From contig JAURNL010000093.1 of NCBI GenBank assembly GCA_030830205.1, positions 1 to 48,932 on the forward strand: a DNA stretch of 48,932 bases, in the 5' to 3' direction. The translations under genes were made by a program, and so were the position numbers. This document shows positions 24,814-32,064 of this stretch, in pieces; positions within the stretch are counted from its first letter, which is position 1; the number at the start of each line of letters is the position of its first letter. This DNA is from Crocinitomicaceae bacterium. Its GTDB lineage: Bacteria > Bacteroidota > Bacteroidia > Flavobacteriales_D > Crocinitomicaceae. Under the pieces are notes generated by a model that was not told where the DNA came from, did not search any database, and saw only the letters and a list, made by a program, of their open reading frames with translations.

Positions 24814-24817
24814 GCTG

Positions 24818-24825
24818 CAAAGTTA
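24818..24825 (-). promoter_or_regulatory. -7 box before asnS, sharing bases with the DUF4907 stop
   Basis: TAACTTTG on the minus strand, exact TAnnTTTG, 4-nt gap to the ATG at 24813. Its first three bases are the TAA stop of the upstream gene (24825-24823). Confidence 0.45.
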
Positions 24826-25179
24826 GTGAATGTTTAAATTCTTTAAATCGTCTTCACTAACCGTTGGTGGAAAGATCTTAGCTTGAAGCTTGGTTTTCAC
24901 TAATTCTGCTACGCGCTGTGCATCAGCTTGCGTTTGAAAACCATCATTTCCAGACCTTCCTGGAATAGTAGGTTGATCAAGTAATAATTTCCCGTTTTGA
25001 CGAATTTGATAACCCCAACCAGTTGGACTTTGTACGGTCGTAATTTCAAAGCTCGTTTTGGACTTTGACTTTGTTGGAAAATGGGTAATTGGCTTGTGAA
25101 GTGGTTTAACCTCATTGAGCTCCACTGGATCAGCATTGCACGCTACCAAAAAGAAAAGAATTATAAAGGACCGCAGCAT
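24823..25179 (-). CDS. DUF4907-domain lipoprotein
   Basis: 118 residues. Signal with lipobox LVAC (Cys14), then a DUF4907-type domain: TTVQSPTGWGYQIRQNGK, LLDQPTIPGRSGNDGFQT, and a C-terminal PPTVSEDDLKNLNI. From memory this family often sits next to kelch proteins in Bacteroidetes, as it does here. The start at 25179 gives a proper lipoprotein signal; the longer frame to 25266 adds residues read out of frame from the kelch gene. It overlaps the upstream kelch gene by 19 bp and is last in that operon. Function unknown. Confidence 0.8.
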   Translation of the reverse strand: MLRSFIILFFLVACNADPVELNEVKPLHKPITHFPTKSKSKTSFEITTVQSPTGWGYQIRQNGKLLLDQPTIPGRSGNDGFQTQADAQRVAELVKTKLQAKIFPPTVSEDDLKNLNIH

Positions 25180-26381
25180 TTGACAAAAGTAGTGGTTTGT
25201 TGAATTTCTGCTGCATTCATATGAAGGTAATAAACACCATCTGGTAAAGACCGGACATCTGCGCATAATTTGGAATCATTTCTTTCAAAAGTAATATCCA
25301 TTTTTTGACCCAATTGATTCCAAACTTCTAAGTTAAATTCTTCTGATGTTAAAGAAATAGAAATAAAATCTGAAGTTGGATTTGGATATGCGTTAAGTTC
25401 AAACAATGCATGCTCTGCAATAGAGGTTGTGCCACTATATGCCCAAAGGTCATCATAAAAGGTCCCGTTGTTATATCCAGTGCCAATAAATCCCCATCCA
25501 TCTAAATAGAAAGCAACTGCATTTATTCTACCTGGACCTGGAAGATCTGCGCGCTGTATCCAACTGTTTAAATAGTAATTATACTCCCAGAGATCTTTAT
25601 GGTATACGTAATTGGCGTCTTGGCCTGTTCCGAGGTAACAAACTGGGAATGCGGACCACCCACAAGCTCCGGAGCGCGGACCACCAGGGAAATTAGCTTT
25701 TTGAATCCACTGGTCTGTTTGTGGGTTATACATCCAAAAATCATTTTTAAGCGTTCCGTCATCACCCGTTCCAATAAAGCCAAAATTTTCCATTGAAAAA
25801 GCCACGGCGGCTCGGCGTGGTGTGCCGGAAAAATCAGTGATTTGTTCCCAAGTATTACTGTTTGGGTCGTAGGCAAAAAAATCGTTCTTGAGACCTGCTG
25901 CGCTATTTCCTGTTCCAACGTAGGCCTTATTGCCAATTACAAAACTCACTGCCTCTCTCCGTGGAGCACCTACAAAGTTTGCTTTTTGAGTCCAAGCTTC
26001 TGTACTTCGATCGTATTCCCATAAATCATTCATAAACGCTATGGTTTGAGTCTGACCCAGGCCCACATACCCTTTGGTTTGGCCTTCATGTTCTAAGGCA
26101 AATGAAATGGCGCCTATTCGTCCTAAACCCGTTCCACCTTCTCCTCCCAATGAGACTTCATCATCCCAATCATCTTGATCAGCACGATAAGAGTACATTT
26201 TTCGCTTGTATTCGAAATCATCTGTTCCTGCGACCACGTATGCCCTATTTCCAAGAACAAAAGTACTTGCGGCAGACTTTGGGGGGCCATTAACTGTATC
26301 TCTTTGCTGCCAATAATCTTGCCCGAAAGCAGATAACTGCTGAAGAAAAATCACATAAAACGTTAATAGTAACCTACTCAT
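25161..26381 (-). CDS. Kelch-repeat secreted protein with T9SS C-terminal domain (copy C)
   Basis: 406 residues: signal peptide ending near AFGQ, six kelch repeats of about 50 residues (pattern R..AV.F....AY.GTG......DF..Y.P....W.Q...FPG), forming a predicted six-bladed propeller, then a T9SS sorting domain (ELNAYPNPTSDFISISL to DGVYYLHMNA). Such proteins are carried across the outer membrane and anchored or released. The C-terminus ends KCCGPL, unlike the usual basic K.VK-type end. It overlaps the upstream copy by ATGA and the DUF4907 gene by 19 bp. Ligand unknown; carbohydrate or protein binding is possible. Confidence 0.88.
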   Translation of the reverse strand: MSRLLLTFYVIFLQQLSAFGQDYWQQRDTVNGPPKSAASTFVLGNRAYVVAGTDDFEYKRKMYSYRADQDDWDDEVSLGGEGGTGLGRIGAISFALEHEGQTKGYVGLGQTQTIAFMNDLWEYDRSTEAWTQKANFVGAPRREAVSFVIGNKAYVGTGNSAAGLKNDFFAYDPNSNTWEQITDFSGTPRRAAVAFSMENFGFIGTGDDGTLKNDFWMYNPQTDQWIQKANFPGGPRSGACGWSAFPVCYLGTGQDANYVYHKDLWEYNYYLNSWIQRADLPGPGRINAVAFYLDGWGFIGTGYNNGTFYDDLWAYSGTTSIAEHALFELNAYPNPTSDFISISLTSEEFNLEVWNQLGQKMDITFERNDSKLCADVRSLPDGVYYLHMNAAEIQQTTTFVKCCGPL

Positions 26382-27586
26382 ATCTTCGTGATTTTTTTGG
26401 AGAACGTTTGTCCATCTAAAAGCGTAAAATAAAGAATGTAGCTACCAGATTCCAAGGCAGAGCAATCTATTGAATGCTGATATGACTCATTTTTTTCAGA
26501 TTGAAGCACTTTGATACCCATTATATTATAGACTTCAAAATTTGATACAAAGTTTGACAGACCGCTAATCTTTAAAGTTGAACTTACTGGATTGGGATAG
26601 ATTTGTAAAGACGATTCAAGTTGTTCCAATGCAGCGTAATTAGAAGGCTCATAAACATACCAACTTTTCTTTTTACCTGAATATCCTTTTCCGGTCCCAA
26701 CATATGCCTTATTGTCTATCACAAATGAAATTGCACTCTTTCTTTCACTTCCGCCATATGCAGCCCTTAGCGTCCATGAATTTGTTTTTGGATTATATTC
26801 AATTAGATCTGATAGTAAACCGCCGTTATTTCCTAAACAAACAAATCCTCTTTCTTCAAGTGAAAAAGCACTAGCGGAACCCCTTTCGTATGCAGGAAAA
26901 GAAGCTATTGCTTGCCAATTATTAGCCCCTGGATCATAACAATAAACGTCCTTTTTAAAAATATTTTGGTCAGTTCCCATGCCCACATAAGCTTTTGAAC
27001 CAACAACAAAAGAGAGCATTTGATAGCGCACACCGCCTGGAAAGCTAGCGCGTTGAATCCACTGATTATTGCTCGGCTTGTATTCCCACAACTGACTACT
27101 GTACAAATTTGGACCTATTTTCCCGCCGCAGAGATAGCCTTTGCCTCCTACAGCAAAACCAGTTGCAAAATAAATACCATCACCCCCTCCGCCAGGAAAA
27201 TCTGCAACAGCTGCCCACGAATTGGTACTAGGGTTGTAACGCCAAAAATCCTTTAGTCTATCTCCTGTGGGGCCTGATATGCTATCCATGCCGGTGCCTA
27301 CAAAGGCAAAGTTCCCAATGACGAAGGAAACTGCATCACGGCGAGGTGAACCCGGTAAATCTGCTTTTTGAGTCCAGGCATCAGATTGAGGATTGTATGC
27401 CCATAAATCTTTATGGACAATCTCAGCTGTATCTATTCCCCCACACAAATAACCAAAATTACCAATAGCAAATCCAGTGGCGCGTTCGCGTTTGCCCATA
27501 CCCACATCATTGAGCTTCGTCCAGGTATTATATTGGGCTGTTACCCATAAAGGGATGAATACCAAACAGAACAAAAACAACCTCAT
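26378..27586 (-). CDS. Kelch-repeat secreted protein with T9SS C-terminal domain (copy B)
   Basis: 402 residues: signal peptide ending VTAQ, six kelch repeats (for example RRDAVSFVIGNFAFVGTG and RYQMLSFVVGSKAYVGMG), and a T9SS sorting domain with LQIYPNPVSSTLKISGL, a YNIMGIKVLQ strand and a final LDGQTFSKKITKI, a normal basic end. A paralogue of its neighbours on both sides, with ATGA overlaps at both junctions. The repeats keep the W and paired Gly residues expected of a closed propeller. Exported to the cell surface by inference; ligand unknown. Confidence 0.88.
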   Translation of the reverse strand: MRLFLFCLVFIPLWVTAQYNTWTKLNDVGMGKRERATGFAIGNFGYLCGGIDTAEIVHKDLWAYNPQSDAWTQKADLPGSPRRDAVSFVIGNFAFVGTGMDSISGPTGDRLKDFWRYNPSTNSWAAVADFPGGGGDGIYFATGFAVGGKGYLCGGKIGPNLYSSQLWEYKPSNNQWIQRASFPGGVRYQMLSFVVGSKAYVGMGTDQNIFKKDVYCYDPGANNWQAIASFPAYERGSASAFSLEERGFVCLGNNGGLLSDLIEYNPKTNSWTLRAAYGGSERKSAISFVIDNKAYVGTGKGYSGKKKSWYVYEPSNYAALEQLESSLQIYPNPVSSTLKISGLSNFVSNFEVYNIMGIKVLQSEKNESYQHSIDCSALESGSYILYFTLLDGQTFSKKITKI

Positions 27587-28728
27587 TTTTTGATTATTTT
27601 TTCTTCGTAAATAATTTGATGATCATTGCCAATTTTCAAGATGTATTTCCCTGGATTTAAGTGTGATACATCAATACTTTGTTGTAAAAACAACAACTGG
27701 TCTTTCAAATACAACCTTCCATTCAAATCAAATATGCTGATTTCAATATCTTGAGACCAAATACCCATACATTGAATTTGCAATTGATTTACTACGGGAT
27801 TGGGATAGGCTTTCACTGCTAATTGATTTGATATCAATCCAATGGTGTTATCTGTTGGATTAAACTGCCAAAAATCGTTAAAATTGATTCCATTTGTTCC
27901 AGTGCCAATGTATCCTCGGTCATGAATAGCAAATGCCACAGGAAACCTTCGTTTTGTTCCCGGAAATTCAATTTCTTGAGTCCATGAATTTGAGGCTGGA
28001 TGAAAGGACCAAACCTGATCAGTAACCAATGACAATCCTCCTACATACCCAGAGGTTACATATCCCCTTTGCTGAATTGCAAATCCAGAACTTCCCCCTG
28101 TTGAGAGCCCGGGAAAACTAGCGCGTTGGATCCATTGATCATGAAGTGGTTTATATTCCCAAAGTTGAGTTCCTCCTTTAATAAACCCACTCCCTTCAAT
28201 TACAAATGAGCAAGTCCATTGACCAAATGACATTGGTGCTGTAGCACAAATTGACCAGGAATCTGTATTGGGATTGTACTTAGCCAATTGATTCGCCTGA
28301 TATACAAAACCCTCATTATTCACTGCAAATCCTTGGCTATCACCTGGATTAGGTAAAATGCAATTGGCAATTGGTGTCCAAATGTTTTGAGCAGGGCTGA
28401 ATTTGTAAAATTGAGTGCTCAAAGCAGATCCGCCTCCAACAACAGGACAATTATCGACTACAAAAGCCACTGCGCCATGTGTGCTGACTGGAAAATCTGC
28501 ACGCTGAGTCCAAGTGTCGGATGCGGGATCATATTCCCACCAATCTTTGTAGGAAATATCCTGACCTGTTCCGTTAACGTGTCCTAAACCCAAATATCCT
28601 CGATGTGAAGTTGCACATCCAGTTGCTCGGTGCCTACCTGGTCCGCCCATACTAGACTTTTGAATCCAAAATTGAGCATAGTAATCAGAAGCAAAAAAGA
28701 TAACGAGCAATAAAGTATAAATCCTCAT
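27583..28728 (-). CDS. Kelch-repeat secreted protein with T9SS C-terminal domain (copy A)
   Basis: 381 residues from the ATG at 28728, which gives an ATGA overlap with the upstream GEVED gene (the longer frame from 28740 adds MAEI). Signal peptide to about YYAQ, six kelch-type repeats, and a T9SS sorting domain (VKAYPNPVVNQLQIQCMG; LNPGKYILKIG). Repeats 2-4 are more degenerate than in copies B and C: several lose the GTG turn or the D.W.Y strand (for example NEGFVYQANQLAKYNPN). This suggests older divergence or a different binding face. Ligand unknown. Confidence 0.87.
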   Translation of the reverse strand: MRIYTLLLVIFFASDYYAQFWIQKSSMGGPGRHRATGCATSHRGYLGLGHVNGTGQDISYKDWWEYDPASDTWTQRADFPVSTHGAVAFVVDNCPVVGGGSALSTQFYKFSPAQNIWTPIANCILPNPGDSQGFAVNNEGFVYQANQLAKYNPNTDSWSICATAPMSFGQWTCSFVIEGSGFIKGGTQLWEYKPLHDQWIQRASFPGLSTGGSSGFAIQQRGYVTSGYVGGLSLVTDQVWSFHPASNSWTQEIEFPGTKRRFPVAFAIHDRGYIGTGTNGINFNDFWQFNPTDNTIGLISNQLAVKAYPNPVVNQLQIQCMGIWSQDIEISIFDLNGRLYLKDQLLFLQQSIDVSHLNPGKYILKIGNDHQIIYEEKIIKK

Positions 28729-29855
28729 AATTTCTGCCATTTTTGAATTCTCCCTGTTTCAAGTTCTTTTAAGAAATAAACTCCGGCATCTAAAAAATCA
28801 AAGTTATAAAAGGACTGTTTATCAGTATTTAAAGTCTGTATTACATTTCCTTGCAAGTCTAAAAACTGGAAAGTGCCTGCATTTGGAGTTAGGTTTAGAT
28901 CGCCAAAACTTGGGTTTGGATAAGCGTTAAACAGACTTTGCTCATGAGCATCCAGGCCTACATAACTTGCATTGATTTGCAGTGTATAATCACCACTAAA
29001 TGCCCCCCAGCCTTCTACTACAATATAAAGTGGGCCCAAATCTGTGGCATCAAAGGATAATGAAGATTGTGGCGCACACTCTGGATCATCATCGTTGTAA
29101 GCAATTACAGTCCCATTCATGTCAATAACACTTAAAAAAGTGTCAAAATTTGAACCACAAAGAGAGACATTAACTTCAGCAAGTAAGGGATTAGGTTCGA
29201 AATAATAATAAATATCTGGAGATGGATAGACATAATTGTGATTCGAATAACATATTTCCGTTGAACGGGTATCTGTATATGGAAGTGTCGTCACGATAAT
29301 TGCATCATTTTGTTCGTCGCCAGGATAACCGCTGCAATCAAGACCATTGGTCAGTGTAATGCCGAAATCTGTAACAGAACCCCATGTGAATGTTCCACAA
29401 GGATTAAGTGGTAAGGACCCCGCCTCGCGATGCATAACACGCAAGCGGGATTGGCCATTTACAGCATTTGCTGGAACTGTAAAGGTCCAGTTTTGAGTAA
29501 GTGCTGGAGGAGTTCCTGCCCAAGTGCCTAAACTTTCATTCGGGTCAAAAATTCCATTCTGGTCAAAATCTATCCATGCCTGACCTACTCCTGCATAATT
29601 ACCATTGCAGGTACCAAATTTGATGGAAATCGTATATGTAGCGCCCGCATTTAGTGATACGTTCACACTTTGCGAAAGGTCATGTAAGCCTATTACGCCA
29701 GGGCAACCTGTATAATTGATCGTGCCAATTACACCCGTTAATACCACACTTTCAACATTAGAATCTACGGTGCTAGTAGGTCCAACACTGGTGCAATATT
29801 GAGCAAAAACAGTAAATTGTAGGATGGTAAAAAGCAGTAAGTAACTGTGTTTCAT
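28725..29855 (-). CDS. GEVED-domain secreted protein with T9SS C-terminal domain
   Basis: 376 residues. Signal peptide to VFAQ; a GEVED-type domain at about 20-170 with the hallmark AWIDFDQNGIFDPNE and SRLRVMHRE; a pre-peptidase C-terminal-like beta domain at about 185-300 (FDTFLSVIDMNG, AYNDDDPEC, LYIVVEGWGAFSGDYTLQI); and a T9SS sorting domain (LFNAYPNPSFGDLNL to LETGRIQKWQKL). No protease domain is visible, so it is a binding or structural cargo. First gene of the kelch array operon; a near-consensus box (TATCTTTC, 29872-29879) lies 16 nt upstream. Confidence 0.87.
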   Translation of the reverse strand: MKHSYLLLFTILQFTVFAQYCTSVGPTSTVDSNVESVVLTGVIGTINYTGCPGVIGLHDLSQSVNVSLNAGATYTISIKFGTCNGNYAGVGQAWIDFDQNGIFDPNESLGTWAGTPPALTQNWTFTVPANAVNGQSRLRVMHREAGSLPLNPCGTFTWGSVTDFGITLTNGLDCSGYPGDEQNDAIIVTTLPYTDTRSTEICYSNHNYVYPSPDIYYYFEPNPLLAEVNVSLCGSNFDTFLSVIDMNGTVIAYNDDDPECAPQSSLSFDATDLGPLYIVVEGWGAFSGDYTLQINASYVGLDAHEQSLFNAYPNPSFGDLNLTPNAGTFQFLDLQGNVIQTLNTDKQSFYNFDFLDAGVYFLKELETGRIQKWQKL

Positions 29856-29919
29856 TCGGTAGTAGTTTACCGAAAGATAGTAATATTAAAGGTATTAACA
29901 AAAACGTAAATTACACTTA

Positions 29920-30484: not shown

Positions 30485-31351
30485 CTACCAATTTGGGCAG
30501 GTATTACACTTATCAGACTGTTTCAAATAGAATAAGGCACCTACTACGATATCGCGTTGACCGTACAAAAATGCCTGCTTAGCATGTGAGTCATAGTCAT
30601 TGGGGCGTGTCTTAACACGATACTGACCCATAAAACCTCCCTGAATATTAGCAGCAATAAATAAATGTTTGAAAAACTCAGCGCGCAAACCTAAGTGACC
30701 AGATGCTCCAACACCAGATAAAGAAAGTGTTTCCATTGACTTTTCACCTGCAAAAGTAAAGTCATTGTAAGAAAGAATAGGACCTGCTCCTACACCCATC
30801 ATGGTGGTCAAGGCAAAATTTCCTTTCTCAGTTTTATAGACTTTAAAAACATTTGTGAGTTGGACATTGATGTAATTGAGCCCATTTGTATTTTCATAAT
30901 GAAACGTACTTTCATTTGTTGTAACCGTATCTCTATCAAAGGATCCTGACCAACCAGTTGCCTGATCAATTCCTGGGCTAATTGATCCACTTAAGTAGTA
31001 AGTAGGTCCATGCTTCATGACATACTTCATATGTTCGTAGCCAAAAGATACAGCCCAGTTACGCTTGAAATTATAACCGATACGTGCATCGAATTGAGGG
31101 ACAGTAATGGTTTTTAAGCTAATGTATTCATTAAATTCAGTTGAAGGGCGATCAGCTGCCTCTACTCCTTGCAGCTTGAAATCATAGCCCGGCCCTATGA
31201 AATGAATCGTGCTTGGCGTATAAATACTCCGGTTATAGCCCCAATAAATAAACATCGTTCCAGGACCTGTCGATTTCTTTTGATTGAGATATTGAGCCTG
31301 TAGCGTGGCTCCAAAGGGGAATAAAAGCGCAAGAAAAACTATATATTTCAT
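30485..31351 (-). CDS. Outer-membrane beta-barrel protein of unknown function
   Basis: 288 residues from ATG 31351 (ATGA overlap with the preceding gene, and a clean signal peptide to LQAQ). The mature chain shows beta-strand pattern with WGYNRSIY, GPGYDFKLQGVEAADRP, ARIGYNFKRNWAVSFGYEHMKYVM and FFKHLFIAANIQGGFMGQYR, a set I remember from a conserved Bacteroidetes outer-membrane family with no known function. The last strand is followed by a Cys-containing tail (CNTCPNW) in place of a terminal Phe. Sits between pth and a membrane-anchored protein in one operon. Confidence 0.75.
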   Translation of the reverse strand: MKYIVFLALLFPFGATLQAQYLNQKKSTGPGTMFIYWGYNRSIYTPSTIHFIGPGYDFKLQGVEAADRPSTEFNEYISLKTITVPQFDARIGYNFKRNWAVSFGYEHMKYVMKHGPTYYLSGSISPGIDQATGWSGSFDRDTVTTNESTFHYENTNGLNYINVQLTNVFKVYKTEKGNFALTTMMGVGAGPILSYNDFTFAGEKSMETLSLSGVGASGHLGLRAEFFKHLFIAANIQGGFMGQYRVKTRPNDYDSHAKQAFLYGQRDIVVGALFYLKQSDKCNTCPNW

Positions 31352-32064
31352 CGGGCGATAATTTGTATCCACTCCTTTTGACTTAGGATTCGTTCTAAAC
31401 GAAAATGAATGGATTTGTTACTATTGTGCCAAGCTACGAGACCGTATCCTTTTGCAAAAATACTGAATTGTAACCCCGTTATCTCTTTTTCAGTACGCCT
31501 AAAAGGATTCAAAACGGTACGGCGAATCTTGTCTTTAAAAACCAAAGCTGCTGCCTTTTTCTTATCCAGAAATGAAGTTGGTTGCTTTTTATGCAGCTTA
31601 CGAAAAACCTCATGGAGCAAGACGGTTGAATCAACAACTCCACTGAATTTGGAAGCAAACCATGTTTCCTTGTTTAAATCATACGGGAAAAGCTGTGTTT
31701 TGTACAGCATTGCTTTCTCTTTACTTTCCATGCGATTGACAACCATATGATCTTGCACTACAAGAGAATCAATGTTATAATTCATAGCCTCGCGCAAGCG
31801 ACCATCTGCCGCATAAACCTCTACAATTAGGTGAGGTCCTGCAGCATCCTCTACTGTGTAAATCCTATGAAATTCTTCATCTAAACCATTTGCAATATCG
31901 CGATACTGATAGATTTTTGGGATGGTGTCAAGCGGATAAAAGAAAGCCGCATTTGGATTTAGACTTTGATATGTAAAACTTGAGTCAGACACATAACCTT
32001 TGACATACCACCCGATAATGGAGGCAAGTAAAGTAATCATGCCAAAAAAGACCCACTTTTTCAT
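31348..32064 (-). CDS. Membrane-anchored protein of unknown function
   Basis: 238 residues with one N-terminal membrane segment (WVFFGMITLLASIIGWYV, about 4-21) and a predicted periplasmic domain. No recognisable motif or catalytic pattern; the central part is basic and Lys-rich (KKAAALVFKDKIRRTV). ATGA overlaps on both sides (rluB-like gene upstream, outer-membrane barrel downstream) make co-translation likely, so it may support the barrel. I do not recognise the family. Confidence 0.75.
   Translation of the reverse strand: MKKWVFFGMITLLASIIGWYVKGYVSDSSFTYQSLNPNAAFFYPLDTIPKIYQYRDIANGLDEEFHRIYTVEDAAGPHLIVEVYAADGRLREAMNYNIDSLVVQDHMVVNRMESKEKAMLYKTQLFPYDLNKETWFASKFSGVVDSTVLLHEVFRKLHKKQPTSFLDKKKAAALVFKDKIRRTVLNPFRRTEKEITGLQFSIFAKGYGLVAWHNSNKSIHFRLERILSQKEWIQIIAR

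Follow-up and report, generated by a model that had tools for sequence, protein, structure and literature searches.

The window, a stretch of 48,932 nucleotides from a Crocinitomicaceae bacterium (contig JAURNL010000093.1), carries on its minus strand five genes that overlap head to tail in the order GEVED–kelch A–kelch B–kelch C–DUF4907. The first gene of the unit (28725..29855) encodes a GEVED-domain protein of 376 aa ending in a type A sorting tail of the type IX secretion system (T9SS). It is followed by kelch A (27583..28728, 381 aa), kelch B (26378..27586, 402 aa) and kelch C (25161..26381, 406 aa), all three with T9SS tails, and then by a gene (24823..25179) for a small, lipoprotein-like DUF4907 protein (PF16250) of 118 aa with a lipobox-like stretch before a cysteine. 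The ORF coordinates agree with the initial annotation, which had described five genes without a gap: ATGA junctions, that is, 4-bp overlaps, are found at GEVED/A, A/B and B/C, and kelch C and DUF4907 overlap by 19 bp. Kelch A has an alternative in-frame ATG at 28740, and in the ORF list DUF4907 has a longer start at 25266, which we judged less likely. The cassette is flanked by a peptidyl-tRNA hydrolase gene (pth) and by a class II tRNA synthetase gene of the D, K, N type, presumably asnS rather than another of that class. The leader between pth and the GEVED gene (29856..29919, minus strand) contains a candidate promoter (TTG ... TATCTTTC), which we take to be of the Bacteroidota type; its TATCTTTC part is present in two of the four genus members, making it a weak candidate. 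Another stretch, TAACTTTG at 24814-24830 on the minus strand, lies at the end of DUF4907 directly before the tRNA synthetase gene and is presumably promoter-like. At 30485-32064, also on the minus strand, two genes gave no Pfam match at E 0.1; the first of them has a weak AcfA-type outer-membrane barrel match.

We looked at the domains of the five proteins with Pfam and NCBIfam profiles. PF16250 matched the DUF4907 protein at E 4.5e-21 with 74.8 bits (cut-off 25) over 65 of 67 positions (Pfam), so that the window protein has the same domain over nearly the full profile. Kelch repeats scored above the curated cut-off in kelch A (Kelch_6, 43.6 bits, cut-off 25.3), as did several Pfam kelch families in B and C. 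The sorting tail (PF18962/TIGR04183) was above cut-off in kelch A, B and C and in the GEVED protein, where Pfam also found PF20009, confirming both the three kelch proteins with sorting domains and the flanking GEVED/T9SS protein that had been proposed. From these tails, export of the four proteins via T9SS is predicted. SprA, a T9SS protein, is encoded in the window's own genome, and the cassette resembles T9SS type A cargo in having a C-terminal sorting domain in four of five proteins together with SprA; the difference is that here the cargo is a set of kelch propellers in a fixed order. According to PMC10952558, the GEVED domain is a companion of an adhesin domain, and in CshA-type fibrillar adhesins NR2 invariably has GEVED after it, the reverse not being stated. 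The window protein has PF20009 in common with these adhesins and, unlike them, is short and bears a T9SS tail. Pfam at E 0.1 listed no CshA-type binding domain in it, nor an NR2 domain as far as the profiles include one.

Kelch C, modelled with 32 sequences at a mean pLDDT of 90, forms a propeller of six blades, which an N-terminal strand closes, and then an Ig-like C-terminal domain; the blades were counted by eye from the modelled strand list. The six-repeat architecture initially given for all three kelch proteins is borne out by this model for kelch C only. Among the 50 matches listed, the model matched the kelch domains of KLHL17, KLHL20 and Keap1 (E 7.6e-18 to 1.2e-15), and a sequence profile against the PDB likewise found KLHL/Keap1 kelch domains. 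Kelch C has the fold and repeats in common with propellers of this type; unlike them, the cassette kelch proteins are bacterial, carry a T9SS tail and come from sets of two to four genes with a definite order. The DUF4907 model (13 sequences) consists of three strands, a helix and a short helix, with residues 41-118 above 90 pLDDT by block. No PDB structure matched it at E 0.001 in Foldseek, and against PDB sequences nothing scored better than E 0.24. With VIA-align, the top row was the methane monooxygenase inhibitory subunit (Z 5.8, 52 aligned, 2.6 A), and HVO_2922, which we take to have the DUF1508/YegP-like fold, reached Z 4.9 (55 aligned, 2.5 A); both lie below 8, and such matches to a predicted model are too weak for naming a family.

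We then looked at the conservation of the unit. PF16250 was searched in 60 genomes of the window's family, 22 of which were positive, and in 247 genomes of the class, 55 of which were positive, the own genome, with its single DUF4907, being counted in both. The 74 further matches were fetched as 73 loci that extend some 6 kb to either side, or as far as the contig allows. With the window added and a partial second match in L072 set aside, this gave 74 DUF4907 proteins, whose neighbour genes were scored against HMMs built by iteration from the proteins of the window. Within the family, a same-strand kelch/T9SS gene was found directly upstream of DUF4907 in 22/22 loci, the window included; the arrays comprise two kelch genes (4 loci), three (9 loci) or four (9 loci). 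Since this holds for all 21 other family loci, the arrangement of the window is not due to chance. In 21 of the 22, at least one possible DUF4907 start falls between -53 and +3 bp relative to the stop of the kelch gene; for L050, the script gave only a far-upstream start, and an internal ATG was seen by eye at about -13. A GEVED homologue precedes the array in 16/22 loci, window included. These counts are based on clustering, a stricter threshold having missed clustered members, and Pfam confirmed GEVED in all five loci tested (the window and four others). GEVED is missing from five loci that cluster with one another in the kelch trees (L051, L052, L054, L062 and L064), and its position is out of view in L053. 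Downstream of the unit, four genus members have the tRNA synthetase gene; in the other loci, a TrkA-type gene (nine loci), a nitroreductase gene (three) or a further gene takes this place, as identified by Pfam on one member per cluster. With at least six such downstream contexts, conservation concerns the unit itself rather than its surroundings. In the 38 DUF4907-negative genomes of the family, tandem kelch matches were found only in G028 and G057, whose arrays run off the contig end ahead of the DUF4907 position.

The relationships among the kelch proteins were studied with quick trees, for which SH-aLRT is the only support. In a tree of 109 kelch proteins, the 22 family proteins adjoining DUF4907 grouped as clade r1 (support 100), and the 22 family proteins in second position as clade r2 (support 99); kelch A, B and C of the window belong to r3, a head class, r2 and r1, respectively. 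In a tree of 126 proteins, the r1 clade had 33 rows (SH-aLRT 97) and the r2 clade 35 (95), and both reached families f38, f28 and f45 besides that of the window, four families in all. A lone kelch near a contig start in G041, another DUF4907-negative family genome, falls outside both clades. In the arrays, r1 comes after r2, and a head gene (r3 or r4), if there is one, precedes both; this order recurs in the three further families at the loci examined. By tree, r2 stands directly before r1 in 33/33 examined arrays holding both, namely 22 of the family, five DUF4907-linked and three unlinked ones of f38, two triads of L139, and L140, which stops about 100 bases before a contig end with its downstream side out of view. 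L137 has r2 before r1 too, by HMM class alone; HMM classes marked '?' and the r2-r1 pair of L147, outside both clades by tree, were left out of the count. The 15 extra loci (L135-L149) were chosen among the matches listed and are a selection of arrays, not a full survey.

Kelch triads were also found without an adjacent DUF4907. In the f28 genome G194, six tandem kelch/T9SS genes (L139:3958-11294) form two consecutive head-r2-r1 triads. Of the five f38 genomes inspected, three have a second cassette GEVED-r3-r2-r1 (L142-L144; GEVED by Pfam), and one DUF4907 lies elsewhere in those genomes. The r1 and r2 proteins of these cassettes nest within the clades of the Crocinitomicaceae (support 100 and 97) and not with the remaining copies of f38, and their r3 proteins join the r3 of the window's family (support 100) in a group without other members. 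The simplest reading of these trees would be whole-cassette transfer between families; an old duplication followed by losses is the alternative.

We compared the kelch proteins of the window with those of three genus relatives (L050/L048/L049). Identity was 79.8/73.5/58.6% for kelch A, 78.1/76.3/52.4% for kelch B and 68.8/68.2/52.8% for kelch C, kelch A being the best conserved in two comparisons and kelch B in the third. In these three relatives, the flanking tRNA synthetase and Pth were better conserved than any of the five cassette proteins. The dN/dS ratios were mostly uninformative, with synonymous sites saturated in 16/21 comparisons and five finite values of 0.019 to 0.223. Near-invariant positions specific to one clade (at least 93% within the clade and at most 25% in the others) numbered 10, 11, 5 and 10 for r1, r2, r3 and r4, which is consistent with distinct roles of the four classes. 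Kelch A had been called the most degenerate of three unevenly diverged copies. It does have the lowest profile score (PF24681, 45 bits, below the cut-off of 50, vs 91 for B and 84 for C), but its identity to the genus relatives does not agree with this. A recent tandem duplication was rejected because each position has its own clade across genera, and decay of kelch A was rejected because its clade is kept in 16/22 family loci and it evolves no faster than B and C. Altogether, judged from the sequences, the three kelch genes represent orthologous classes that are old and distinct and keep a fixed order, and the idea of unevenly decaying copies does not stand.

To define the link between DUF4907 and kelch genes across the class, we counted same-strand kelch genes within 300 bp of DUF4907 and found them for 46/74 proteins, in 16 families. 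The two are often neighbours, and the finding that could have told against the initial annotation, namely that they rarely occur together, was not made. DUF4907 stands at either end of the kelch array depending on the family; in f38, it lies ahead of the array rather than behind it. At the genome level and ignoring phylogeny, kelch (E <= 1e-20) was present in 52/55 DUF4907-positive vs 68/192 negative genomes of the class sample, the three exceptions being G081, G176 and G277, and in 22/22 positive vs 16/38 negative genomes of the family, again ignoring phylogeny. Conversely, 68/120 kelch-positive class genomes had no DUF4907 match.

Eleven kelch ORFs had no detectable T9SS tail. Five were left out: L108 and L110 are cut by an end, L079 has a stop inside the match, the start of L082 was not found and L118 may have a weak tail. 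The remaining six, all full-length (L069, L070, L073, L074, L077 and L092), appear by eye to have a lipobox-like signal at their beginning. Three of the six (L069, L070 and L073) have a run of acidic residues after the cysteine, which resembles the signal for surface export of lipoproteins reported in PMC5080379. A DUF4270 gene is found near all but L092, and beside it in these five loci clustering detected a further gene of about 400 aa. A DUF4270 gene also lies near L114, whose DUF4907 is without a kelch neighbour. SprA was found in 239/247 class genomes and, outside the family, in 47/50 DUF4907-positive ones, the three without it being G239, G117 and G131. G239 is 56% complete and the relatives of G117 have SprA, which leaves G131 alone to separate DUF4907 from T9SS. 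This genome (99% complete) has a pair of a lipoprotein-like kelch and DUF4907 (L073) and no SprA match. A tie of DUF4907 to T9SS was thus weakly tested, SprA being near-ubiquitous, and the G131 pair speaks against it. Since the six full-length kelch neighbours without a tail are lipoprotein-like, and one of them occurs in a genome where SprA was not detected, it is apparently the propeller and not the route of secretion that DUF4907 goes with. The exchange of a sorting tail for a lipoprotein signal with DUF4907 retained would part a partner of the propeller from a partner of the secretion system.

The overlapping genes, the conserved order, the T9SS tails and SprA in the same genome are the basis on which we read the locus as a co-expressed cassette, and overlaps and tails support the surface-directed propeller array, encoded as one overlapping unit, that had been suggested from the start. 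Our tentative reading, to which we give slightly less than an even chance, is that several non-redundant kelch propellers, often with a GEVED protein, would be placed on the cell surface by T9SS, with DUF4907 acting on them from the periplasm. The five genes would be expressed together; the head (r3/r4), r2 and r1 propellers would be a matched set of complementary binders or subunits and might form one surface adhesion or ligand-binding layer. No observation made here points to the host or prey ligands considered in the initial annotation; glycans, also named there, would be conceivable ligands. DUF4907, whose gene begins at or within the end of the last propeller gene, would face the periplasm and act on the propellers before or during export by holding, capping or tethering them. 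We infer such an action because DUF4907 stays beside the propeller whether this has a T9SS tail or a lipoprotein signal. A broader version, in which DUF4907 is a dedicated, route-independent periplasmic kelch escort in Bacteroidota and the head-r2-r1 triads are an obligate heteromeric surface machine moving between families as a unit, appears improbable to us.

DUF4907 might instead be itself a surface lipoprotein, an extra component such as an anchor of the exposed propeller complex and not a periplasmic partner. A lipoprotein-like signal in 58/74 DUF4907 proteins, by a crude rule erring both ways, fits this, as do the acidic residues, at least two within positions +2 to +6, of 6/22 family members, which resemble the signal in PMC5080379 and make surface exposure of some of them possible. 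However, the window protein has one acidic residue in that stretch, and in L069, L070 and L073 it is the kelch protein that bears the acidic run and the neighbouring DUF4907 does not. Moreover, by eye, three homologues (L073, L074 and L080) look membrane-anchored, so that their domain would face the periplasm, and further ones carry what look like ordinary signal peptides. We regard the surface reading as doubtful, and a periplasmic side for DUF4907 as plausible.

It could also be that DUF4907 acts generally in the envelope and sits with kelch genes by history, through operon packaging only. The 28/74 loci without a kelch neighbour are in line with this; they include all seven of f17, all six of f21 and four of five of f24. 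The neighbours tested there look unrelated. A SprB-repeat T9SS protein adjoins DUF4907 in L071 (Pfam), and its cluster mate does so in L088. Yet packaging would need repeated re-association or long retention to account for opposite array ends by family, different kelch types and 16 families, and 23/26 genomes whose sole DUF4907 is unlinked have kelch elsewhere (hand count). Packaging alone is therefore unlikely in our view. To call DUF4907 a dedicated partner goes too far outside the family, where the unlinked loci and the triads without DUF4907 speak against it.

That the kelch proteins are sialic-acid mutarotase (NanM)-type enzymes acting on extracellular sugars is very improbable: matches over partial stretches (TIGR03547 at 81 bits in kelch B) and the shorter Pfam model PF24996 (NANM; 61.9 bits in B and 48.1 in C, cut-off 45) point that way, but the full-length NCBIfam models stay far under cut-off (at best those 81 vs 256 bits), on which score the TIGR03547 identity was rejected, and the closest solved structures among the matches listed are protein-binding KLHL/Keap1 and designed kelch domains.

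Among the papers listed from the literature searched, with few subscription journals, none describes a cassette of kelch proteins with T9SS sorting domains or lipoprotein-type kelch repeat proteins in Flavobacter, and the literature searched for DUF4907 (PF16250), mostly outside subscription journals, gives no function for it, in line with the initial remark that the function appears undescribed. On the reading of a propeller cassette with a periplasmic DUF4907, this domain of unknown function would be given a definite partner that can be tested in many families of the class, and secreted bacterial kelch proteins could be a maintained ordered set and not redundant copies. Finally, a fourth, distant kelch/T9SS gene lies outside the cassette on another contig of the window's own genome (L141:6092-7273), and the genus relatives G022 and G040 each have one extra kelch match away from the cassette.
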